A DNA stretch of 10,790 nucleotides from Chloroflexota bacterium (lineage in GTDB: Bacteria > Chloroflexota > UBA6077 > CF-72), in assembly GCA_019242065.1 (NCBI GenBank), contig JAFAWJ010000124.1, positions 1 through 10,790 on the forward strand. Direction: 5' to 3'. Shown piece by piece: positions 490-10,790 of this stretch; the stretch's first letter is position 1; every line of letters begins with the position of its first letter. The notes beneath the pieces were generated by a model. It ran no database searches and was not told the DNA's origin. It was given only the letters and a program-made list of their open reading frames with translations. A program made the translations under genes and the position numbers.

Positions 490-3400
490 TTACGCGCCGA
501 CGGGCGGGAGCCTGGCATTATCGATTGACTGATTGAGGAAGGCCACTTCCGTGGCCAGGACCTCGCCTAGCTGATCCAGCTGCGTCTGGACTCGCGCCGA
601 TAGGTCCGAAAACACGCCGCGGGCGGCGGCCGTCGGGGCGCCGTCGCCGCTGGCAATCAGGGCTGCCAGCGACGCCAGCTTGCCGTTCAGCTTCACCGGC
701 ATACCCAGCGTGTCGCCGCGCGAGACGGCACGTGTCTGAATCAGCTCGGCCTCGATCGGCTCCAGGCGCTCCAGGACGGCCGAGGCAGCTCGACGCACCG
801 CTTCGAGCTCAGATCGATCCTTGGCCCGCGCCAGCCAGTCATTCGCCTGCCGCCGCACGGTGCGCAGCCGATTGACCGCCGCATGCGTTTCGGACAGCCG
901 AGTCTGGACCTGCAACAAGAGTTCAAATTCCGCCCGCAAGTCCGCATCACTCGCCTCGAGCCGCGGGTCACGCCGAACCTCAAACTCCTGCTCAAACATG
1001 TCAGGCCCCACTGTGAGCCGCACACGGTACACACCAGGCGGCACCTGCGGCCCGGCAATGCCGCCCTCGACCAGCTCGTTGGCCACCTCGTCGTCGTCGA
1101 TCTTCGTCGCGTCCGGATAGCGCAGGTTCCAGGTCCAGCGATTCAGACCCGCTTCCCGAGGAATGCGCGGCTGCTTGTTCTTGCGCGCCTGCGCCTTTTC
1201 CGCGTCGGTCCTGGCCGCCGCCTCCAGGTCGCGACTTGAAAAGCTACGAATCTCGCGACCATCAGCCTCCAGGAACGTCAAGGAAATATCGCCCTCCGGG
1301 ACATCACGAAGGAAGTAGTCGACAATCGCGCCGTCAGGCGGATTGCTGCCGGCGTCGAGGTACCGGGTGATCTTGTCGCCCGTCCGCGGGTCGTCCCTCT
1401 GGGTGTAGGTCACCATCACCGCGCCAGGCATGCGGTAGTTCTTGCCGCGAATCGCCTTGTGGCCGAAGCCGCCGTTGCTGGTGTATCTGATCACCGGCCG
1501 AGGCTTGACCAGGACCGTCGCCGCGTCGTCGTAGACCGCCCGCACCGGCCCCAGGTGGTCGAGGATCCAGAACGAGCGCCCGTGCGTCGCCACCACCAGG
1601 TCGCCCTCGGGCTCTTTGACGACCAGGTCGTGGATCGGCACGATCGGCAGATTGCCGCGCAGCATCTGCCAGCTGGCGCCATCGTCCAGGGATACGTACA
1701 GCCCGGTCTCTGTGCCCGCGTAGAGCAGCCCGCGACGCGTCGGGTCCTCGCGAATCGTGCGACAGAAGACGTCCTCGGGCAGCCCCGCGGTGATCCGCGT
1801 CCACGTTGCGCCATAGTCGGCGGTCTTGAACAGATACGGGGCGAAGTCGTCGAGCTTGTAGCGGTTGGCGGCCACGTACGCACAGGCCGCATCGTGCGGC
1901 GAGGCTTCGAGGATGCTGATCAGACTCCACTCGGGCAGCTCCGGCGGCGTCACGTTGTGCCAGGAGGCGCCGTTGTCGCGCGAGACGTGGATCAGGCCGT
2001 CGTCGGAGCCGGCCCAGAACACGCCCTGTTGTCGCGGCGACTCCGCAAACGCGAAGATCGTGCCGTAGTACTCGGCGCCGGTGTTGTCGCCGGTGATGGG
2101 ACCGCCGGAAGCCTCGAACGTACTCGGGTCGTTGCGGGTCAGGTCCGGGCTGATCGGCTGCCAGTTGGCGCCCTCGTCAGTCGAGCGAAAGACCACGTTG
2201 CCCGTGACGTACAGCACGTTGGGATCATGCGGCGACAGCAGCGTCGGAAACGTCCACTGGAACCGATAGCGGGCGTCTTTGGCGCCCGAGCCGAGCATCT
2301 CTTCGGGCCAGACGTCGATACCCCGCGCCTGACCCGTCGCATGGTCGTAGCGCGTCAGGAAGCCAAGATAACTGCCGGCGAAAATGATGTCGGGGCGGTC
2401 GGGCCGGACGGCAATGTACCCGCTTTCGCCGCCGCCAATCTCCCAGTACTCGGCATGGGTGATGGCCACCAGCGGCGAGCGACTGGGCACCGAGATCGTG
2501 GTGTTGTCCTGTTGCGCGCCGTGCAGCCGATACGGCGTCCGCGTGTCGGCGGTCACGTGGTACATCTCTGCCGTCGGCTGGTTGTAGATGGAGGACCAGC
2601 TCGCGCCGCCGTTGAAGGTGACCAGCGCACCGCCGTCGTTGCCTTCGATCATCCGCCGCGTGTCGGCCGGATCGATCCACAGGTCGTGGTTGTCGCCGTG
2701 CGGAATCGCGAACTGAGTGAACGTCTGGCCGCCGTCGATGGACCTCCACGTCTCGACGTTGAGCACCCACACCGTGTCGGCATCCCGCGGGTCGGCAATG
2801 ACGTGGTGGTAGTACCAGGCGCGTTGACGGAGCTCGCGCTTGTCGCTGAGTCTGTCCCACGTCTCGCCGCCGTCGTCTGAGCGGAAGACCGCGCCATCCT
2901 CCGCCTCGACGATCGCATACACGCGGTCGCGCTGCGCGGCTGAGACGCACACGCCGATCTTGCCGAGCACGCCGCGGGGTAAACCCTTGTTGCGCGAGAT
3001 CTCGGTCCAGGTGTCGCCGCCGTCACTCGACTTGAACAGTCCGCTGCCGGGTCCGCCACTGGTCAGGCTGGACGGTCCACGCCGCGTCTCCCAGAACGAC
3101 GCGTACAAGACGCGTGGGTTGAGCGGATCCATGCTCAGATCGTTGGCGCCCGCATCCGGGCTTCGGAACAGGACGTGCTCCCAGTTCGCGCCGCCGTCAC
3201 GCGAGCGGTAAATGCCGCGCTGCTGGTTCGGACCGTGCGCGTGGCCCAGCGCGGCGACGTAGATCAGGTTCGGGTCGCTCGGGTGGACGCGCACTTTCGA
3301 GATGTGGCGCGTCTCGACGAGGCCCAGGTGCGTCCAGGTTTTGCCGGCGTCGGTCGAACGGTAGACGCCGTCGCCGTGCGAGACGTTGCCGCGGAGACAA

Positions 3401-3669
3401 CTTTCCCCCATGCCGACGTACAGCACGTTCGGATCGGCCCGCGCCACGGCGATCGCCCCTACCGACGCCCGCTTGAAGAAGCCGTCGGAGACGTTCTGCC
3501 AGAAGATGCCCCCGTCATACGTCTTCCAGACGCCGCCTCCAGTGGAACCGAAGTAGAAGACCTGCGACTCGAACGGGTCACCGGCCACCGCGCCGACGCG
3601 CCCACCCCGGTACGGTCCAACCATGCGGTATTCGAGGCTGTGGAGCATGTCCGCGGGAGTCATTGCCAT
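490..3669 (-). CDS. Sortilin/VPS10-type BNR-repeat beta-propeller protein, 1059 aa
   Basis: The protein opens with the signature of the large bacterial 'glycosyl hydrolase, BNR repeat'/sortilin-like family: MVGPYRGGRVGAVAGDP at about residues 16-32, then GSTGGGVWKT. Asp-box (S-x-D-x-G-x-x-W) motifs recur through the first 670 residues, near positions 105, 156, 214, 263, 310, 495, 563, 615 and 660, indicating one or two large propellers. VATHGRSFWILD (693-704) is the usual end of the propeller part. An Ig/FlgD-like strand region follows (about 838-900), then a helical, probably coiled-coil tail (905-1050). Length fits the family. Most relatives I know of begin with a signal peptide; this one has none, so it appears cytoplasmic or leaves by another route. 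No catalytic activity can be read from the sequence despite the family name. ATGs at 3669, 3663, 3648 and 3624 are all possible starts; none has a clear ribosome site, and the conserved block begins at 3624. The stop is TAA at 490-492. Confidence 0.88.
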   Translation of the reverse strand: MAMTPADMLHSLEYRMVGPYRGGRVGAVAGDPFESQVFYFGSTGGGVWKTYDGGIFWQNVSDGFFKRASVGAIAVARADPNVLYVGMGESCLRGNVSHGDGVYRSTDAGKTWTHLGLVETRHISKVRVHPSDPNLIYVAALGHAHGPNQQRGIYRSRDGGANWEHVLFRSPDAGANDLSMDPLNPRVLYASFWETRRGPSSLTSGGPGSGLFKSSDGGDTWTEISRNKGLPRGVLGKIGVCVSAAQRDRVYAIVEAEDGAVFRSDDGGETWDRLSDKRELRQRAWYYHHVIADPRDADTVWVLNVETWRSIDGGQTFTQFAIPHGDNHDLWIDPADTRRMIEGNDGGALVTFNGGASWSSIYNQPTAEMYHVTADTRTPYRLHGAQQDNTTISVPSRSPLVAITHAEYWEIGGGESGYIAVRPDRPDIIFAGSYLGFLTRYDHATGQARGIDVWPEEMLGSGAKDARYRFQWTFPTLLSPHDPNVLYVTGNVVFRSTDEGANWQPISPDLTRNDPSTFEASGGPITGDNTGAEYYGTIFAFAESPRQQGVFWAGSDDGLIHVSRDNGASWHNVTPPELPEWSLISILEASPHDAACAYVAANRYKLDDFAPYLFKTADYGATWTRITAGLPEDVFCRTIREDPTRRGLLYAGTETGLYVSLDDGASWQMLRGNLPIVPIHDLVVKEPEGDLVVATHGRSFWILDHLGPVRAVYDDAATVLVKPRPVIRYTSNGGFGHKAIRGKNYRMPGAVMVTYTQRDDPRTGDKITRYLDAGSNPPDGAIVDYFLRDVPEGDISLTFLEADGREIRSFSSRDLEAAARTDAEKAQARKNKQPRIPREAGLNRWTWNLRYPDATKIDDDEVANELVEGGIAGPQVPPGVYRVRLTVGPDMFEQEFEVRRDPRLEASDADLRAEFELLLQVQTRLSETHAAVNRLRTVRRQANDWLARAKDRSELEAVRRAASAVLERLEPIEAELIQTRAVSRGDTLGMPVKLNGKLASLAALIASGDGAPTAAARGVFSDLSARVQTQLDQLGEVLATEVAFLNQSIDNARLPPVGA

Positions 3670-3687: not shown

Positions 3688-4797
3688 ATGCGTGCAATGG
3701 CCGCGGACAGCGTCTTTTTGCACTGTGACGTGGACAAGATGTACTTCTCGGTCGAAGCGCTCGAGTCGCCAGAGCTGGCGCTGGATGCGCGCGCGGTCAT
3801 CGTCTCGGTCGATCCGCGCGACTATCCGCGCGCGGTGGTCACCACGGCCAACGCGGTCGCCCGCGAGATCGGCATCAACAGTGGCATGAGCTCGGCGCTG
3901 GCCGCCCGCACCGCGCGCGAGCACGGCATCGAGGTCGCGTTCGTCCGACCGCGTCATGAGCTGTACGGCCAGTATTCGCGGCGGCTGATGGACCTGCTGC
4001 GCACCGAGACTGACCTGCTCGAACAGCGCTCGATCGACGAGGCGGCGCTCGACTGGCGGCAGCACGGCTTTCTCCCTCAGCCGGTAGTTCGGTTGCGGGC
4101 GCGGATTCTGGACGAAATCGGACTGTCGGTGTCGTTCGGGGTCGCGTCGAATCTGCTGGTGGCCAAGATGGCTTCAGAGCGTGCCAAATCTTGCGCGGAC
4201 CACGTGTGCGTCGTGCAACCTGGCCAGGCGGCGGAGTTTCTGGCGCCACTGTCGGTGCGCGCGTTGATTGGCGTTGGCCCCAAGTCCGAGGCGCGGCTGA
4301 TCGGCTTCGGCGTGCAGACGATTGGCGACCTGGCGACGCGGCCGCTGGAGTGGCTGGTCGAGCAATTCGGGTCTGCCTATGGTCGGTACTTGTTTGCGGC
4401 GTCGCGTGGTGAGGATGACTCGGTGCTGATCGGCGAGCGTGCCTACAAGAGCATCTCGGCGGAGCACACCTTTGCGCGCGACACGGCCGACCGTGGCGAA
4501 ATCTGGCGCCGCATGCAATCGCAAGCGGTGGACGTGGCCGCGCGGCTACGGTCGGAAAGCCTGCTGGCGGGCGAGGTGGCCATCAAGCTGCGCTACGGCG
4601 TGACGTGGGTGACCATCACCCGCCAGCTGCGCCTGGGTGCAGCCACCGACGACGCCGAAGTGCTAGCCGCCAGCGCCGCCGCCCTGATGCGCAAAGCCTG
4701 GACCCGCCGCCCCATCCGCCTCATCGGTCTGCGCGCAGGCAAGCTGGAAGTTGCTCGCGACGCAGACGCGATTCAACTCAGCCTTCCACGCTCATAG
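3688..4797 (+). CDS. dinB: Y-family translesion DNA polymerase (DNA polymerase IV type), 369 aa
   Basis: This error-prone polymerase would bypass damaged template bases. The N-terminal catalytic motif HCDVDKMYFSVE (12-23) supplies metal-binding Asp14 and Asp16, with Tyr19 at the steric-gate position. RSIDEA at 114-119 gives catalytic Asp117 and Glu118. YPRAVVTTANAVAREIG (47-62) matches the fingers strand holding the triphosphate, with Arg49 as the likely contact. SFGVASNLLVAKMAS (about 149-163) is the conserved palm helix. LIGVGPKSEARL (about 192-203) is the thumb helix-hairpin-helix. The rest is a little-finger domain. The protein ends in QLSLPRS, which fits the beta-clamp binding peptide (QLSLF-like), as also found at the C-terminus of E. 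coli Pol IV. All catalytic acids are present, so it should be active and is not an ImuB-type inactive paralogue. ATG 3688 is chosen, with ATG 3697 as a close alternative; no strong ribosome site precedes either. It looks monocistronic. Confidence 0.9.
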   Translation: MRAMAADSVFLHCDVDKMYFSVEALESPELALDARAVIVSVDPRDYPRAVVTTANAVAREIGINSGMSSALAARTAREHGIEVAFVRPRHELYGQYSRRLMDLLRTETDLLEQRSIDEAALDWRQHGFLPQPVVRLRARILDEIGLSVSFGVASNLLVAKMASERAKSCADHVCVVQPGQAAEFLAPLSVRALIGVGPKSEARLIGFGVQTIGDLATRPLEWLVEQFGSAYGRYLFAASRGEDDSVLIGERAYKSISAEHTFARDTADRGEIWRRMQSQAVDVAARLRSESLLAGEVAIKLRYGVTWVTITRQLRLGAATDDAEVLAASAAALMRKAWTRRPIRLIGLRAGKLEVARDADAIQLSLPRS

Positions 4798-4955: not shown

Positions 4956-6134
4956 TTATGAAGTGCGTTCGATGATGTAGAGGCCGCCGGTGAAGCGATC
5001 GGTCGCATAGACGAGCCCATCGCTGCCGACGAGCACGTCGTTGAACTGGATACTGGAGCGGCCGGGAGGGGGTTCGGGCACGTAGTAGGCGATCTCGCGC
5101 GGCTGGGCGGCATCCGTGATATCGATCACCCGCAGGCCGGCGTTGAACCACGTCACGTAGATCGTGTTCGGATCGCTCAAAGTCCCCGGGCGCATCTCGT
5201 GCACGTTGTGTGGCCCGAAGCGGCCGCCGCGCAGGCAGTAGTCGCCCTCGGGCACGGGGAACTCGGAGACGACCCGCGGGTGCCGCTCGTCGGCGATGTC
5301 CACCACGCGCACGCGGGTTTGCATACCTTTACAGTCCTGGGCGAGCTGCTCGTCGGTCACCACCAGGATGTCGCGGCCGGGCACCGGCAGCGCCGTATGC
5401 GTCGCGGTACTTTCGGCGGCCCCGAAATCGAGCTGGCTGACGAACACGGGCGCGGATTTCTGAGAAATGTCCAGGATGACGAGGCCGGCATCCCACCAGC
5501 CACAGTAGGCGCGGTTGCCGCGGATCAGCGGGTGGTGCAGCGCCACGCGCTTGGCTCCGGCCGCGCCACCGTGCGACTGCGTCGGCGTCCACGAGGGCGT
5601 CTCCCCCGCGCCCGTGTTCTGGCCCGGGAACCACCAGCGCCCCACCTCGCGCGGACGTGACGGCTCCGACAGGTCGACGATCACCAGGAACTGGTCGATC
5701 AGGCCGTCGTCGCTGCCGCTCATATACGCGTAGGGCGGCTCCCAGTAGGTCATGCGGTGCACGCCCTTGCCAGGCATGGCCAGGAAGGCCATCTCACGCG
5801 GCTGCGCGGGTGAGGAGACGTCGAAGACTTTGAGGCCGCCCTGCCAGCTGGTGGCATCTGGCTCGAACATGCTGCGCTCGTAGTTGACCAGCAGCACGTC
5901 GCCGACCACCTGCACCTTGTGGGAGTGGGTGCCGACGGGCGTCTCGATCTGGGTCACGACGCGCGGCCGACTCGGATCGGACACGTCCACGACCGACGTG
6001 CCGACGCGGCTTTCGCCCATGTGTGCGACAAAGGCGAAACCGTCCTTCAGATTGACGTGCATGCAATCGCCATGGCCGTTCAGGTTGGTCTGGCCGACCA
6101 GGCGCATGTTGAGAGCTTCGGCTTGCGCGAGCAT
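4956..6134 (-). CDS. LVIVD-repeat beta-propeller protein, 392 aa
   Basis: Seven copies of an LVIVD-type strand motif run the length of the protein: SVVDVSDPSRPRVV (about 47), LKVFDVSSPAQPRE (101), FLVIVDLSEPSRPRE (149), LVILDISQKSAPVF (218), VRVVDIADERHPRV (275), LRVIDITDAAQPRE (334) and a closing LYIIERTS (385). Seven blades suggest a closed beta-propeller. The family is usually a binding or scaffold module and no enzyme activity can be claimed. His-rich spots such as GTHSHK (68-73), ALHHP (198-202) and FGPHNVHE (306-313) could bind metal, but this is speculative. No signal peptide is visible, so a cytoplasmic protein is expected. ATG 6134 is preferred; a GTG at 6164 adds ten residues (MCRSECYRGA) that look unlike a conserved N-terminus and crowd the divergent promoter. 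A GGAG lies about 15 bases upstream of the ATG. The gene faces away from the five-gene run to its right. Confidence 0.85.
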   Translation of the reverse strand: MLAQAEALNMRLVGQTNLNGHGDCMHVNLKDGFAFVAHMGESRVGTSVVDVSDPSRPRVVTQIETPVGTHSHKVQVVGDVLLVNYERSMFEPDATSWQGGLKVFDVSSPAQPREMAFLAMPGKGVHRMTYWEPPYAYMSGSDDGLIDQFLVIVDLSEPSRPREVGRWWFPGQNTGAGETPSWTPTQSHGGAAGAKRVALHHPLIRGNRAYCGWWDAGLVILDISQKSAPVFVSQLDFGAAESTATHTALPVPGRDILVVTDEQLAQDCKGMQTRVRVVDIADERHPRVVSEFPVPEGDYCLRGGRFGPHNVHEMRPGTLSDPNTIYVTWFNAGLRVIDITDAAQPREIAYYVPEPPPGRSSIQFNDVLVGSDGLVYATDRFTGGLYIIERTS

Positions 6135-6170
6135 AGCGCCACGGTAGCACTCCGACCGACACACAAATCA

Positions 6171-6209: not shown

Positions 6210-8003
6210 GTGGCATTCGAGGGCAGCGACGTTCTGGCCATCGCCGAACGTGTCAACGCGCGCCTGGCCCACGGCCCCTGGGATACGGCCGCCCTTCAGT
6301 CCAGCGACCCCAACCCGGATGCAGATCTCGACACCGCCGCCGAGGTCGCCGTGTTTGCGCTCGAGCTGGCGGGCAAGCGTCGTCAGGCGCGCCGCGGCGG
6401 GCGCTTCGGCCGGTTGATCGTCAACTTCGCGTTCGCGGCGTGCGTCGCGCTGTCGACCTTCGCTGCCGCGTGCGACAAGCCGGACGCCACGCCCGAAGAG
6501 ACGCAGACCGCCATCGACGAGCTGCCCGCATACAGCGGCAGTGTGGCGGCCATCGGGCAGCCGGCGCGCGCCAGCCCGGCCAACTTCACCGGCATGGTGC
6601 TGATGGACGCCGGCAGTGACAGCCAGCCGTGGGCCGTGTTGCAGGCAAGTGACAGCTCGAACCCGATCCTGGTCGATCGGGTGGGCTCGGGCCTGGACAC
6701 GGTGGGCGACACGTACAGCCTGGCCGCGCAACCGATCATGGTCGGCACGCGCGACGGTGCATCGCAGTTCCTGGACCCGCTCCAGCCGGCGGTCAACAGC
6801 GGTGGGACGCCAGCCTCCGTGGCGAACACCGCCGAGCAGCTCGAGCAGCGCTGGTCGCAGGACGAGCGCTATCTGGCTCCGACGCGCGCCATTTCGGGTC
6901 AGACGACGGTGCTGGACGCCGCCTACAACGCCGCGGCGGCCGCGGCGGCCGGCGGGACGCATACCTATCTCAACGGCGTCGTGCTGCGCGTGGAGCCTGA
7001 CAAGCCGGTGCTGTCCGTCATCGACAAGGCCCTGCTGGAGTCGGGCGCGCCAACCCGTGAAGAGGACGTGGTATACGTCGCGATTCCACCCAGCGCGCAG
7101 TCGTCCTACAACCCCGGCCAGGTCGTGAACCTGCGCAACGTGGTGATGAATCAGCAGCAGACCGACGTCAACGGGCAGTCGACCACGCTGTACACGGTGG
7201 ATGCCGCGGTGAACGGGGCGCAGGTCGAGCCGACCGGCACGGTCGATCTGCAGTCGCTGCTCCAACCTCGGCTGCAACGCGTGGACCAGGACATCGCGGC
7301 GAATGACCAGGCGGCCGGTACGGGCACGCCGGGCGCGCCGGCCACGCCTGGATTGACGCCCACACCTGGACCGGGGCCGACGCAGCCACCGCAGCAGGTC
7401 ATCGTTCGCGATCGCGGGCCGTCGTTCGTCGACGATTTCCTGATCTGGATGTGGATCAGCAACTCCGGCTACTACCGCGGGCCGTCGGTCATCATCAACA
7501 ACCCGCCGACGTCGATCAGCCGGCCGAGTGATTCGACGTATTACTCGCCGCCACCGGTTCCCAGCTCGTCCAGTCCGAGCACGGTCGCGGCGTCGCAGGC
7601 CGCCTCACGCAGCACCGCGCTCGAAGCCTCGCGGTCGGCGGTGTCGGGTCAGGCATCAGGGACGGGGGGTGGCGTGGCGGCTACCAACAAGTCGGCGGCG
7701 GCCTCGTCGGTTGCAGTCGGCGCGGCGACGGCTAAAGCGGCGTCGGTGGCTGGTGATGTCAGCACGTCATCGGCGGGCAAGAGCGCAGCGTCAGTGGCTG
7801 GCGGCTCGGCGGGGTCGTCGATTGCGAGTCGCAGCGCGGGGACGACGTCGGCGGGGACGCGCGGCAGTGCGGGGGTTTCGTCGTCGTCGGGCGGCTCGAG
7901 CTCGGGCGGCCTGTCGTCGTCGAGCTCCAGCGGGCGCAGCTCCTCGGGTGGGTTCGGGAGCAGCAGCGGTGGCAAAGGCATCAGCGGCGCGAGCAGCAGC
8001 TAG
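6210..8003 (+). CDS. Membrane-anchored or lipoprotein-like protein with Ser/Gly/Ala-rich tail, 597 aa, possible YgiB/YjfM analogue
   Basis: Not firmly recognised. Residues 1-55 are soluble and acidic, followed by a basic stretch (KRRQARRGGRFGR, 56-68) and a hydrophobic segment (69-87) ending FAAAC at Cys88, which resembles a lipobox. The mature part (90-360) looks beta-rich; two segments (about 127-180 and 253-330) have similar strand patterns and may be repeated small barrels. A Pro/Gly/Thr linker (370-395) leads to an aromatic patch, DDFLIWMWISNSGYYRG (408-424). The last 147 residues are low-complexity Ser/Gly/Ala with GGFGSSSGG near the end. E. coli YgiB has the same order (lipobox, FWM-type patch, GGFG and Ser/Gly tail) but is much shorter; the likeness is architectural and I cannot show homology. 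GTG 6210 is the first possible start because an in-frame TAG sits at 6201. A GTG at 6348 would give a more ordinary signal peptide. It is the first gene of the run that ends in a YgiC-like ligase. Confidence 0.72.
   Translation: MAFEGSDVLAIAERVNARLAHGPWDTAALQSSDPNPDADLDTAAEVAVFALELAGKRRQARRGGRFGRLIVNFAFAACVALSTFAAACDKPDATPEETQTAIDELPAYSGSVAAIGQPARASPANFTGMVLMDAGSDSQPWAVLQASDSSNPILVDRVGSGLDTVGDTYSLAAQPIMVGTRDGASQFLDPLQPAVNSGGTPASVANTAEQLEQRWSQDERYLAPTRAISGQTTVLDAAYNAAAAAAAGGTHTYLNGVVLRVEPDKPVLSVIDKALLESGAPTREEDVVYVAIPPSAQSSYNPGQVVNLRNVVMNQQQTDVNGQSTTLYTVDAAVNGAQVEPTGTVDLQSLLQPRLQRVDQDIAANDQAAGTGTPGAPATPGLTPTPGPGPTQPPQQVIVRDRGPSFVDDFLIWMWISNSGYYRGPSVIINNPPTSISRPSDSTYYSPPPVPSSSSPSTVAASQAASRSTALEASRSAVSGQASGTGGGVAATNKSAAASSVAVGAATAKAASVAGDVSTSSAGKSAASVAGGSAGSSIASRSAGTTSAGTRGSAGVSSSSGGSSSGGLSSSSSSGRSSSGGFGSSSGGKGISGASSS
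7560..8000 (+). repeat. Low-complexity Ser/Gly/Ala coding stretch
   Basis: This covers residues 451-597 of the 597-aa protein. Ser, Gly and Ala make up most positions, in runs such as SSSSGGSSSGG and ASVAG repeated twice (about 511 and 527). The DNA is rich in TCG, AGC and GGC triplets without a fixed period, so it is compositional and not a strict tandem repeat. Such tails are usually flexible, surface-exposed and often modified. Confidence 0.75.
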
Positions 8004-8007
8004 GCGC

Positions 8008-8247
8008 GTGTGGTCGGCCACGGCCGATCCCGAGGGGCGGGGCTGGCTGGAGCGCGGCCGCGAGTACGCGCCGACATCAGTGGATAGCATGGATCCGCGG
8101 GTGGTGGACGGTATTCGGCGGCTGGCGCGACTGGCGGATTCGGTCTCGGAGGTGCTGCGCGAGCATCCTGACGTCGAGGTGCGGCGCTCGGTGGCTGTCC
8201 TGGCGGCGCGCGCGCATCCCGTCCTGGCGGCGCTGGATGCCGGCTGA
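8008..8247 (+). CDS. Small uncharacterised protein, about 79 aa (start uncertain)
   Basis: No family recognised. The frame opens with GTG 8008, four bases after the stop of the lipoprotein-like gene, and ends at TGA 8245-8247. The C-terminal half, from MDPRVVDG on, is a convincing helix-turn-helix-length segment: GIRRLARLADSVSEVLREH, then DVEVRRSVAVLAARAHPVL, suggesting two amphipathic helices. The first 27 residues (VWSATADPEGRG...) are less protein-like, and ATG 8089 would give a 52-residue product. The frame is open far upstream on the plus strand, but there it is an Arg-rich shadow of the Ser/Gly tail. It overlaps the next gene by 11 bases, which points to translational coupling and a shared role with the neighbours. 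Confidence 0.5.
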   Translation: MWSATADPEGRGWLERGREYAPTSVDSMDPRVVDGIRRLARLADSVSEVLREHPDVEVRRSVAVLAARAHPVLAALDAG

Positions 8248-8473
8248 CGCGCAGGTTGCATGGGACGAGTCGCAGGCCGCGGGGGACGAGTGGCCCGCCG
8301 CGCAGGTCGCGCGGGACGAGTGGCTTGACGCGCTGATCGCGCGCTCGCCGCTCATGGCCGACATGGCCATGCGCCGCCACTGGCGACGGCTGGTCCCCAG
8401 GTTGCCGACCGCCGCGCGCTTCGAGCTGGCAAGCGTCCTGCTCGACGCCGAGCGGGCGTGGCAGACCGACTAG
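8237..8473 (+). CDS. Small uncharacterised acidic/aromatic-repeat protein, 78 aa
   Basis: No family recognised. ATG 8237 lies inside the end of the preceding gene and TAG is at 8471-8473. The N-terminal third is a degenerate repeat, QVAWDES, QAAGDEW, QVARDEW, each ending in Asp-Glu. The remainder (LDALIARSPLMADMAMRRH and onward to FELASVLLDAERAWQTD) reads as two or three helices with Arg-rich and hydrophobic faces. It has no signal peptide or cysteine. The 11-base overlap upstream and 16-base overlap downstream support real, coupled translation and a small helper role in this operon. The function cannot be read from the sequence. Confidence 0.55.
   Translation: MPADAQVAWDESQAAGDEWPAAQVARDEWLDALIARSPLMADMAMRRHWRRLVPRLPTAARFELASVLLDAERAWQTD
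8251..8323 (+). repeat. Three degenerate in-frame copies of a GCAGG...GGGACGAG unit
   Basis: Copies begin at 8251, 8272 and 8302, spaced 21 and 30 bases, so all stay in the reading frame of the 78-aa gene. The shared core is GCAGG, a variable GC-rich centre and GGGACGAGT. They encode QVAWDE, QAAGDEW and QVARDEW. This looks like local duplication inside a coding sequence. Confidence 0.65.
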
Positions 8474-9057
8474 CCAGACTGCGAGCCTGGCGGCGGTGGC
8501 AGGCGGCGGCTGGCCCCTGGCAGGGCTGGGTGATGTGTCCGTCGCTGACGATGCCGACGACGACGACGCCCTCACAGGCCACTGCTGCCCGCGTCGTCGA
8601 CCAACGAGACCTCTCCCTGGCCAGTTCCCCTGTCGTCGACCAACGAGATTTCTCACTAGCGAGTGCCGCCGCCCAGCTGAACCTGATCTCTGGCAGTCCG
8701 ACCGCCGTCATCTTCGATCTTGATCCGACGTTCGGGATTCGGATTGCGGCATCGCTGAGCAACCAGCGGCTGGCGCACGTGGTGCTGATCCTGCCGCGCT
8801 GGCCGCACACGGAAGCCATCCTGCCCACCGACACGCTGGTCACCACCCTCGTCGAATTTTCAAAACAGCTGCGCGGATCTCCAGACGCCAGACACGTCGT
8901 CTTCGTCCTCGACGGTCCCCGCACCAGGTCCATCCGCCGACCAGCCACAGACCCGCGCGTCGACAACCGCTACGACCTCGCCGTCGCCGATCTCCCGACC
9001 CTTCAGCACTTGCGCGCCGCCGGCATCCAGCGCATCGTCAAGCTCGGCTCCGCATGA
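8458..9057 (+). CDS. Uncharacterised protein with Rossmann-like alternating core, up to 199 aa
   Basis: No family recognised. The conserved-looking part begins near residue 80 and alternates hydrophobic strands with helices: TAVIFDLDP, GIRIAASLSNQ, LAHVVLILPR, LVTTLVEFSKQLR, RHVVFVLDGPR, YDLAVADLP, LQHLRAAGIQRIVKL. That order suits a small alpha/beta (Rossmann-like) domain. DLDP and VLDGPR have acidic residues at strand ends, where such folds often place active sites. Residues 46-71 are a 13-residue tandem repeat. GTG 8458 gives 199 aa; ATG 8533, with AGGG seven bases upstream, gives 174 aa and is equally plausible. No signal peptide is seen, so it is cytoplasmic. Its stop overlaps the start of the ligase gene by four bases (ATGA), so the two products are probably made together and may act together, for example as partner or regulator of the ligase. 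Confidence 0.65.
   Translation: MADRLARLRAWRRWQAAAGPWQGWVMCPSLTMPTTTTPSQATAARVVDQRDLSLASSPVVDQRDFSLASAAAQLNLISGSPTAVIFDLDPTFGIRIAASLSNQRLAHVVLILPRWPHTEAILPTDTLVTTLVEFSKQLRGSPDARHVVFVLDGPRTRSIRRPATDPRVDNRYDLAVADLPTLQHLRAAGIQRIVKLGSA
8593..8670 (+). repeat. 39-bp tandem duplication inside the 199-aa gene
   Basis: Bases 8593-8631 and 8632-8670 are adjacent copies beginning GTCGTCGACCAACGAGA. They encode VVDQRDLSLASSP and VVDQRDFSLASAA, a 13-residue repeat lying in the linker just before the predicted alpha/beta core. The second half of the unit has drifted at the DNA level but kept S-L-A-S, so the duplication is not very recent. Confidence 0.8.
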
Positions 9058-10313
9058 GATCGGTGCTGTCGTCCACCGACTACGCCACCTACATCCGCGC
9101 GTGGGAGCGCGTCGCGCACGCCGGCTACGCACACTACAACGTCGACACGTGGGCCGCCGGGCGGCGCTACCTGTCGCTGACAGCCACCGTCCTGTCAGAA
9201 CCAGAAGTGATCCAGCTCCAGGCCCTCACAGAAAAGTTCGCCAAGCTGCTGAGTCGCGCCGTAGACGGCATCCTCACCGATCCCGACTGGTGGTCGGCCC
9301 TCGCCTGGCCCTGGGCCGCCATCGAGCTGGCGCGCCAGGAGCCACCCCACCCGAGCGGACTGGCGAGCCTGTTCGGTCGCTTTGACTTCCTGCTCGACGC
9401 CAGCGGCCAGTGGCAGGTCATCGAATACAACGCCGACACCCCGTCGGGCGGTCGTGAAGCTAGCGGTCTCGAGCCAGCCATCGCGCGTCTGTTTCCCGCG
9501 CTGCGGCGCATCGAAACGCGACTGGGCGACCGATTCGCACGGACGCTGGTGGCTCGCGTCCGGCAACACCCGCGCCCGGTGCGACTGGTCGGCGTGGTCT
9601 CGACCCACCGCTGGCTCGAAGACGTGTCCCAGGCGGTGTGGCTCACGGCGCTGCTCGAGCACGCCGGCCAGCCGGCCCTGGTCGGCGACATCAACGACCT
9701 GGAGGTCCGGCGCGGCCGAGCGACCCTGCGCGGACAGCCGATCGACGCGCTCTATCGCTTTTATCCGATCGAGCGTCTGTATCAGCATGCCGTCTTTGGC
9801 AGTCTGTGGGACGCCGCCATCGACGGTCGGCTGTTGCTGCTCAATGGCCTGCGCGGGTTCGTGGCCCAATCCAAGGCGTGCCTGGCGTGGCTGTGGGCCA
9901 ATCGGGCGCTTTTGCCGGCCGACGATTGCCTGGCGATCGAGCAGCACGTGCCGCGCACGGTGCTGGCGCGCAATCCTGAGGCACCGGGGCTTGTCGCCGA
10001 GGGCGTGATCAAACATGTCAACGGCCGCGAGGGGGACTCGGTCGTCTTCGGCGCAAGCCTTGATCCCGCTGGCTGGCAGACACGCCTCCTCGAAGACGGG
10101 TACGTCGTGCAGCGGGCAGTGACGTCGCGCGAAGTGGTCGACGTGGAGGTTGACGATCGACGGCGCGAGATCAGGCGCGTTGGCAACCGCGTCGCCTGTG
10201 TTGGCGGCTTCGCGATCGGTGGACGCTTCGGCGGGTGCTACACGCGCCTGGACGGGCGCGTCACATCGGCGCGGGCAACGTACTCGGCGACGCTGTGTGA
10301 CCAGGCACCTTGA
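9054..10313 (+). CDS. Glutathionylspermidine-synthase-family ATP-grasp ligase (YgiC/YjfC-like), 419 aa
   Basis: The family joins a carboxylate of a peptide to an amine using ATP. RFDFLLDASGQW (109-120) and VIEYNADTPSG (122-132) match the family's metal and phosphate-binding core: Asp111, Glu124 and Asn126 sit like the Mg ligands of E. coli GspS (Asp318, Glu330, Asn332, from memory). SKACLAWLW (273-281) matches the NKALLALLW-type motif, VIKHVNGREGDSV (318-330) the K-P-x-x-G-R-E-G ATP loop with Lys320, YVVQRAV (350-356) the YIxQ strand, and GGRFGGCYTR the closing segment. Length is close to the stand-alone YgiC/YjfC ligases. There is no amidase half as in true GspS, so glutathionylspermidine itself is an unlikely product. 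Proline is missing after Lys320 (KH for KP). The true substrate is unknown. The start is fixed by the ATGA overlap with the gene before it. The last 20 codons are the first copy of a tandem repeat. Confidence 0.85.
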   Translation: MRSVLSSTDYATYIRAWERVAHAGYAHYNVDTWAAGRRYLSLTATVLSEPEVIQLQALTEKFAKLLSRAVDGILTDPDWWSALAWPWAAIELARQEPPHPSGLASLFGRFDFLLDASGQWQVIEYNADTPSGGREASGLEPAIARLFPALRRIETRLGDRFARTLVARVRQHPRPVRLVGVVSTHRWLEDVSQAVWLTALLEHAGQPALVGDINDLEVRRGRATLRGQPIDALYRFYPIERLYQHAVFGSLWDAAIDGRLLLLNGLRGFVAQSKACLAWLWANRALLPADDCLAIEQHVPRTVLARNPEAPGLVAEGVIKHVNGREGDSVVFGASLDPAGWQTRLLEDGYVVQRAVTSREVVDVEVDDRRREIRRVGNRVACVGGFAIGGRFGGCYTRLDGRVTSARATYSATLCDQAP

Positions 10314-10430
10314 CAGCGTGTCGCGTCCGCGCGGGCGATGTACTCGGCGACGCTGTGCGACGAGGCGTCTTGACGGCGCGTCACCGCGGTGCGGGCGACG
10401 TCGTCGGCGACGCCGCGTGAGGCGTCCTGA
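10254..10430 (+). repeat. Tandem 60-bp (20-codon) repeat, three copies, each ending in TGA
   Basis: Copy one (10254-10313) is the last 19 codons and stop of the ligase gene. Copy two (10314-10373) is about 82% identical over 60 bases by my count. Copy three (10374-10430) has lost three bases and drifted more. Read in the ligase frame they give GRVTSARATYSATLCDQAP, QRVASARAMYSATLCDEAS and RRVTAVRATSSATPREAS, with stops at 10311, 10371 and 10428. The core TCGGCGACG is identical in all three. Copy three also encodes the C-terminus of the convergent gene. Confidence 0.88.
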
Positions 10431-10790
10431 TAGCGACCTCGGCGGTCAGGCGCAGCAATGGGGCGCGGCGGCCGCGCTGGATGAGCGCGTAGGTCTCTTC
10501 ACCGCCCACGTAGCGGCGCTCGGCAAACCGCAGCCGCAGCGTCATTTCCACGCGGCGGGCGCCGCCCAGCCGCCGCACCAGCCCGGCGTGCTCGGCGCTC
10601 AGCGCCGCGACGACGCGGCCTGGGGCCTGGACCAGCACGTCGTCGCCGACCCACTGCACCTGCGCGTGCAGCTCGACGAGACGGCGCAGGAGATGCGGGC
10701 GCAGCAGGCAGTCGCCGGCCTGCGCATCTGGCTCCCAGTCGACGAGGACCTGGCCACGCCACAGTCGGGCGACGGCGACTTCTCGACGGT
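10381..10790 (-). CDS. Unrecognised protein, C-terminal 135 residues (5' end beyond window)
   Basis: The minus-strand frame is open from the window edge to TGA at 10381-10383, so the start lies to the right. The visible part reads RREVAVARLWRGQVLVDW at the left end, then helices (CLLRPHLLRRLVELHAQ), a strand pair (VQWVGDDVLVQAPGRVVAAL) and RLRFAERRYVGGEETYALI near 80-100. The mix of charged strands and helices suggests a compact cytoplasmic domain, but I do not recognise a family. The GTG at 10659 is an internal codon and not needed as a start. The last 16 or so residues (RTPHAASPTTSPAPR) come from the third copy of the 60-bp repeat and look like a low-complexity extension. It is convergent with the ligase gene and probably belongs to a separate operon. 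Confidence 0.55.
   Translation of the reverse strand, partial: RREVAVARLWRGQVLVDWEPDAQAGDCLLRPHLLRRLVELHAQVQWVGDDVLVQAPGRVVAALSAEHAGLVRRLGGARRVEMTLRLRFAERRYVGGEETYALIQRGRRAPLLRLTAEVAIRTPHAASPTTSPAPR

Follow-up and report, generated by a model that had tools for sequence, protein, structure and literature searches.

A Ser/Gly-tailed, predicted exported protein and a YgiC/YjfC-type ligase in a five-gene operon of probable Chloroflexota origin: a candidate peptide-amine ligase cassette

Which molecule does an ATP-grasp ligase act upon when its gene closes an operon that opens with a tailed, predicted exported protein? The question is raised by five plus-strand open reading frames (ORF1 to ORF5) at positions 6210 to 10313 of contig JAFAWJ010000124.1, which was analyzed here over a stretch of 10,790 nucleotides (the window). 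ORF1 ends in a Ser/Gly tail that contains the motif GGFG, and ORF5 is a relative of YgiC and YjfC of E. coli. The pairing of such ligases with DUF1190 proteins is itself already known; what is new here is that G[FYW]G tails recur beside the ligase in many phyla. The reading we favor, and hold tentatively, is that the five genes form a cassette in which a peptide-amine ligase comes with its own substrate, with a mechanism that is set out in full below.

The ligase and the tails encoded beside it

ORF5 (9054..10313, plus strand; 419 amino acids) matches the Pfam family GSP_synth (PF03738) with an E-value of 1.7e-25 and 90.4 bits, against a gathering cut-off of 29.3. Its closest solved relatives by sequence are YgiC (7uk8, 7uka) and YjfC (7uk6, 7uk7), the best being YgiC (E 6.5e-10), and RefSeq names both of these proteins peptide--spermidine ligases. 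In an alignment of 14 ligases, including those of the window, YgiC, YjfC, and E. coli Gss, we checked 18 Gss positions, which we take to be active-site positions. Ten were identical in all 14 ligases (R109, D111, E124, N126, E189, K274, K320, R325, Q353, and R398 of the window, equivalent to R316, D318, E330, N332, E392, K498, K533, R538, Q568, and R598 of Gss); the remaining eight vary, also between YgiC, YjfC, and Gss. On the plus strand, the active-site segment with R109, D111, E124, and N126 lies at 9378..9431, the K320-HVNG-R325 segment at 10011..10028, and R398 at 10245..10247. The kinship with YgiC and YjfC that the first-pass annotation had read from ATP-grasp motifs is borne out by the Pfam match and the ten invariant positions: ORF5 is a YgiC/YjfC-type ligase with conserved active-site positions, a distant relative of YgiC, and its activity is predicted. 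PMC12568646 describes YgiC and YjfC as recently characterized peptidylpolyamine synthetases, citing Pederick et al. 2023, and PMC12506659 gives glutathionylspermidine (Gsp) activity as absent from YgiC, citing Sui et al. 2012.

Tails were scored with a strict rule, namely that the last 45 residues of a frame on the ligase's strand contain G[FYW]G and are at least 28% Ser+Gly, with the C-terminus of the frame lying within 3 kb ahead of the ligase or 1.5 kb past it. At loci gathered with a ligase profile, the neighbor of the ligase was repeatedly an exported-looking protein with a GFG-bearing Ser/Gly tail, and many such carriers are small. The rule was satisfied at 80 of 124 ligase loci, that of the window included, versus 48 of 9000 other frames of the same loci, these being stop-to-stop readings in six frames and mostly not genes; three places were entered twice (L013/L094, L045/L106, and L023/L125), and the deduplicated counts are 77/121 overall and 35/54 in the phylum sets. 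The profile-scan set contributed 40 of its 56 loci, among which same-genus loci are not independent (approximately 20 of these first 56 are from acetic acid bacteria), and E. coli one of three. Three phylum sets, whose seed genomes were selected for having the ligase, gave 10/14 (L013, Deltaproteobacteria), 13/17 (L045, Streptomyces), and 15/26 loci (L023, Chitinophagales), or 38 of 57 pooled versus 9 of 1184 other frames. Differently filtered counts gave 37 of 59 loci versus 1 of 2781 ORFs under a looser tail rule, and, for the phylum sets in the same order, 10/14, 7/17, and 14/26 loci versus 1/156, 4/233, and 0/272 ORFs. The earlier suggestion that a tailed exported partner recurs beside such ligases agrees with these counts. 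Going by record titles, the tail-bearing loci belong to no fewer than seven phyla (Chloroflexota, Pseudomonadota, Deltaproteobacteria, Bacteroidota, Campylobacterota, Actinomycetota, and Verrucomicrobiota). Excluded from the tail count were L059 (no ligase), L118 (ligase frame too short), L099, L100, L119, L146, and L147 (below the Pfam cut-off), and L061-L063 and L065-L071 (from genomes already represented by other rows).

Ser/Gly tails evolve easily, GC-rich DNA favors their codons, and 8 of 394 other frames of the Streptomyces-phylum set also satisfy the strict rule, all of which would suit a tail that is a mere low-complexity surface linker paired with the ligase incidentally. We regard this as very improbable, since so few of the 9000 other frames satisfy the rule, the position of the motif is constrained, and the pairing recurs in distant phyla. 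In 33 of the 38 phylum-set tails (three of the 38 come from seed genomes) the motif lies within the last 30 residues, and in all 33 it starts 10-17 residues from the C-terminus (median 12), with Arg-Gly before it in 22; for L087, the second of three frames, chosen by eye, was taken, the first not being the carrier. Of the 38 tails, 25 end in G and 10 in S, with GG as the final pair in 24; the Ser/Gly selection of the strict rule favors G or S at the end but selects neither position nor GG.

Outside the tail, the carriers have little in common as far as Pfam models show. When ten were scanned, DUF1190 exceeded its cut-off only in L033 (5.7e-33), eight had no match at E ≤ 0.05, and the L013 carrier matched DUF1190 below the cut-off (0.0039), at model positions 109-157 of 159, which are the tail part. 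The tail would thus be the common part of carriers otherwise without a shared Pfam family. Aromatic patches (at least six F/W/Y in 30 residues) occur in 40 of 83 tail proteins versus 800 of 4665 other frames, a result that is supportive only. The sharing of the tail alone, and the near-fixed distance of its motif from the C-terminus, would both go unexplained if the ligase's product were a small peptide-polyamine metabolite, with the exported tail protein, itself unmodified, binding, sensing, or chelating that metabolite (or metals). We judge this second account rather unlikely, even though the best-known relative, Gss, is annotated as a small-molecule maker, many of the carriers are small and exported-looking, and PMC11237479 calls DUF1190 a metal-chelating lipoprotein, citing Li et al. 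2019.

The tail carrier and its ORF4 partner

ORF1 (6210..8003, plus strand; 597 amino acids; 154 homologue matches) is a predicted exported protein. It consists of an N-terminal part of approximately 65 residues, a hydrophobic segment with Cys88, a confidently predicted core (residues ~105-355), a linker, an aromatic patch, and the Ser/Gly tail. The hydrophobic segment and the lipobox-like ..FAAAC88 occupy 6405..6473. Cys88 is conserved at 90% or more across a 40-row alignment that includes the window; the window's lipobox is weak, with those ~65 residues ahead of the hydrophobic segment, and more distant Chloroflexota carriers have lipobox-like ends such as ..LAAC or ..LSAC. The aromatic patch (residues 406-424; 7425..7481) is conserved in the same alignment and similar patches are seen in other carriers, and a further conserved stretch, SGQASGTGGGVAA (residues 479-491; 7644..7682), has SGRAGGTGxGxAA-like counterparts in relatives. 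The tail itself (7842..8000) is predicted to be disordered, the predicted local distance difference test score (pLDDT) being below 50 across residues 419-597, and its GGFG (residues 580-583; 7947..7958, all on the plus strand) is placed so that GFG starts 17 residues from the C-terminus. The cysteine, aromatic patch, GGFG, and Ser/Gly tail that had been read in ORF1 are thus all present. Among the 120 homologue matches listed of 154, the window's own protein included, 118 carry G[FYW]G within the last 45 residues, at a median of 14 residues from the end, and the last residue is S in 101, A in 16, and G in 1.

A profile of ORF1 residues 396-500 matches the carriers of L067, L068/L081, L069/L082, and L071 (four genomes; E 0.005-0.02) and does not match the longer carriers of L080 and L084. 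These matches hint weakly that the C-terminal module of ORF1 may be homologous to that of other Chloroflexota carriers, a likeness that may be partly compositional. ORF1 had also been taken for a distant version of YgiB, and here the proposal failed: a Pfam search of ORF1 gave no DUF1190 match at E ≤ 0.1, and part of its core has an OB-like fold.

The E. coli pairs YgiB-YgiC and YjfM-YjfC are like the window in that an exported-looking, G[FY]G-tailed protein is encoded with a GSP_synth ligase, and the ligases have the same ten invariant positions. YjfM satisfies the strict rule, and YgiB has TRGGFG near its end but lies below the composition cut-off. Both partners are DUF1190 proteins (PF06693; 2.9e-55 for YgiB and 2.9e-17 for YjfM), whereas the window carrier has a large, partly OB-like core and a tail ending SS rather than GG; the carrier gene directly precedes the ligase in E. 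coli, whereas the window has three additional small genes, ORF2 to ORF4, in between. Gss shares the Pfam family and the ten aligned positions with ORF5, which lacks the amidase part, and no tail partner was found at the E. coli gss locus under the strict rule. The literature searched, a search that most subscription papers lay outside, holds no statement that the C-terminal tail of a neighbor is the substrate of such a ligase, and nothing in it names YgiB as a substrate of YgiC. Amidoligases were reportedly treated by Iyer and colleagues in 2009.

ORF4 (8458..9057, plus strand; 199 amino acids) is predicted to be an alpha/beta protein (mean pLDDT 85), found no match among solved structures, and has a DNRY motif (residues 169-172; 8962..8973, plus strand) that is conserved. 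We examined 16 distinct Chloroflexota loci with the ligase (the window, L001-L008, and genomes G011, G014, G019, G021, G023, G030, and G034). An ORF4-like gene is present at 15, L008 being without it, and a gene like ORF3 (8237..8473, plus strand; 78 amino acids) at 11, these being the window, L001-L003, and seven further genomes, with L004-L008 lacking it; some hits arise by construction, since L005-L007 were rows of the ORF4 profile and L079, L083, and L084 of the ORF3 profile. With the window's ORF4 alone as the query, 10 of 101 related genomes matched, and every match directly adjoined the ligase. In Chloroflexota the ligase is found in the company of ORF4 and, over a narrower range of loci, of ORF3; for these two proteins, the earlier supposition of accessory parts is supported to the extent of this linkage. 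The support does not extend to ORF2 (8008..8247, plus strand; 79 amino acids), which, among the loci collected, was found only in the window, its three close relatives L001-L003, and their second copies; with more distant Chloroflexota ligases ORF2 is missing, and in some cases ORF3 as well. Neither ORF3 nor ORF4 was found at L073 (genome G102), which has another ligase of the Pfam family.

In the Bacteroidota (the phylum of L023), an ORF4-like domain and a tail occur in one protein of approximately 460-470 residues beside the ligase at L135, L136, L138, L141, and L142, the domain being matched at E 5e-12 to 5e-10 among all ORFs; the L142 tail satisfies only the looser rule, and at L139 the ORF4-like piece and the tail are in two ORFs. 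Through this fusion, ORF4 is linked with the tail. L135, L136, L138, and L142 retain DNRY, and L141 has DNR then Cys. Read by eye, the fusions of L135, L136, and L138 have a signal ending in a lipobox-like Cys, plus an aromatic patch; the GFG-tailed fusions of L135 and L138 are encoded at 87-1475 and 11-1411, both on the minus strand. We take the fusion-protein signal to be twin-arginine-like, and such a signal would let a finished, modified fusion be exported folded. It would also place the ORF4-like domain of the fusions outside the cell, whereas no signal is evident in the ORF4 of the window.

Tail modification and the evidence that bears on it

How might the ligase and the tail carrier work together? 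In the cytoplasm, the ligase would bind the last 10-20 residues of ORF1, use ATP to phosphorylate the C-terminal carboxylate of the tail, and join the activated carboxylate to an amine, for which the precedents of YgiC/YjfC and Gss point first to a polyamine such as spermidine. ORF4, together with ORF3, may serve to present the tail or to link the carrier with the ligase, and the carrier would then be exported and anchored so that the modified tail faces outward. Such a reaction would resemble that of glutathionylspermidine synthetase on the glycine end of glutathione. The tail as substrate is the simplest reading because it covers the shared tail, the near-fixed position of its motif, the conserved ligase, and the fusion with ORF4. 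The idea, present in the first-pass annotation, that the ligase modifies a peptide, perhaps the tail, is retained, with the tail as the best candidate substrate.

A wider proposal, which is possible and which we advance with more reserve, is that of a widespread bacterial C-terminal protein-tagging system. In it, a tail of the form [R]GG[FW]G, with approximately 12 residues and a GG or SS end, carried on differently built exported proteins, would be the physiological substrate of YgiC-type ligases, its carboxylate being amidated, ahead of export, with a polyamine or another amine; carrier and ORF4 adaptor would be separate genes in Chloroflexota and fused in some Bacteroidota. The tail is a direct candidate for the natural substrate of YgiC/YjfC ligases, and if the proposal is true, bacteria would have a dedicated C-terminal protein modification and possibly a link between polyamines and the cell envelope. 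To this the Chloroflexota version adds the partners ORF3 and ORF4, the latter of a type fused to the tail elsewhere.

Several points weigh against modification of the tail, which we infer from sequence and predicted structure. The tail is predicted to end outside the cell and ORF5 has no evident export signal, so that modification would have to precede export. The strict rule missed 16 of the 56 profile-scan loci, and the strict motif was found at none of seven further Chloroflexota loci; at six of these the carrier has a variant in which F precedes Ser, and at the seventh, L064, the contig ends ahead of the carrier. No tail neighbor was seen at ligase loci such as L008, L038, L040, and L128; L004-L006 also miss the strict rule, yet satisfy a looser one. 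The terminal residue varies, being GG in many tails, mostly SS in the window's family, and GGGE in acetic acid bacteria, and the tail end is thus small, judged from these sequences, but not fixed. The occurrence of polyamine genes is likewise confounded. Of the 11 Chloroflexota genomes with the ligase that were searched, 10 had the SpeD family and 10 the SpeE family, but SpeD was found in 84 of 201 relatives overall and in 74 of the 190 others, and kinship confounds the link. Genomes G102 and G144 lay outside the SpeE search and both have SpeD; the G144 ligase is over the Pfam cut-off and outside the locus counts.

Weak ligase matches in 7 of 18 matched genomes (L072-L078) were considered and none was counted for tails. 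Six are below the PF03738 cut-off, and we assign them to a different ATP-grasp type; the one over it is L073 of G102, whose neighbor has a Gly/Ser-rich end without G[FYW]G.

The genomic setting also suggests a third account, in which the tail would serve for docking or as a membrane scaffold within an envelope-stress module (with DUF350 and PspA-like proteins), the ligase having some other target. DUF350-like genes are present in 35 locus ids (at least five duplicates among them; three query sources), several Chloroflexota relatives included, and E. coli has the gene layout yjfIJKLMC. PMC11237479, a PSP survey, links GSP-synthetase-like ligases with DUF350 and DUF1190, and its PSP-linked DUF350/DUF1190/ATP-grasp operons are like the window in having a ligase and a tailed exported protein. 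They differ in that PspA, DUF2170, DUF2491, and DUF350 found no match among the nine window proteins scanned. DUF350 had no match in L001-L003 either, and the window ends 477 bases past the ligase, so that a gene farther on is possible. In the mature protein, moreover, the predicted position of the tail is on the outside, apart from the ligase. We consider a docking or scaffold role unlikely.

Gene layout and surroundings

The layout described from the first reading proved correct: ORF1 to ORF5 all lie on the plus strand, with a 4-base gap between ORF1 and ORF2 and overlaps of 11, 16, and 4 bases at the three junctions that follow. In Chloroflexota contigs L001 and L003 the whole set of five genes recurs in unchanged order, and L002 keeps ORF2 to ORF5, with ORF1 broken into pieces around a run of N; among these close relatives no ligase homologue lacking the neighbors was found. 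Differences at the third codon position exceeded those at position 1 or 2 singly in 14 of 14 comparisons of the window with relatives, which argues that the small frames behave as genes, and the five ORFs are real genes rather than chance frames. ORF1 to ORF4 were without any Pfam or NCBIfam match at E ≤ 0.1. The few homologues that bear an organism name are all from Chloroflexota/Chloroflexi assemblies, and Chloroflexota is therefore the most likely source phylum.

The start of ORF2, a gene supported by close relatives and the codon-position pattern, is uncertain, and in relatives its reading frame runs into the end of ORF1. ORF3 holds a 30-base tandem repeat (8250-8343) in its N-terminal part, which is longer than in L001-L003; in L001, a repeat-rich stretch of approximately 290 bases (7910-8198) separates ORF2 and ORF3, versus the 11-base overlap in the window. 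A 60-base tandem repeat of 2.8 copies (10256-10420) spans the last codons of the ligase gene and repeats them 3' of its stop. Farther 3', a minus-strand frame at 10381-10788 has no Pfam match at E ≤ 0.1, and what look by eye like counterparts follow the ligase in L001 (10208-10699) and L003 (6204-6674). In several other Chloroflexota the ligase is followed by a protein of approximately 200 residues with a VYFG..GLGLWT stretch (L080, 5494-6165; L084, 1547-2149, minus strand), with no Pfam match at E ≤ 0.05. On the other side, a divergent LVIVD beta-propeller gene (4956-6164, minus strand) begins 46 bases ahead of ORF1, and beyond it lies a DNA polymerase IV gene (3688-4797, plus strand); by eye, L002 has both, and L003 has an LVIVD-type gene. 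A large BNR/sortilin-type repeat protein is encoded at 490-3669 on the minus strand, and a similar one, also recognized by eye, is found in L002 from position 12977 onward.

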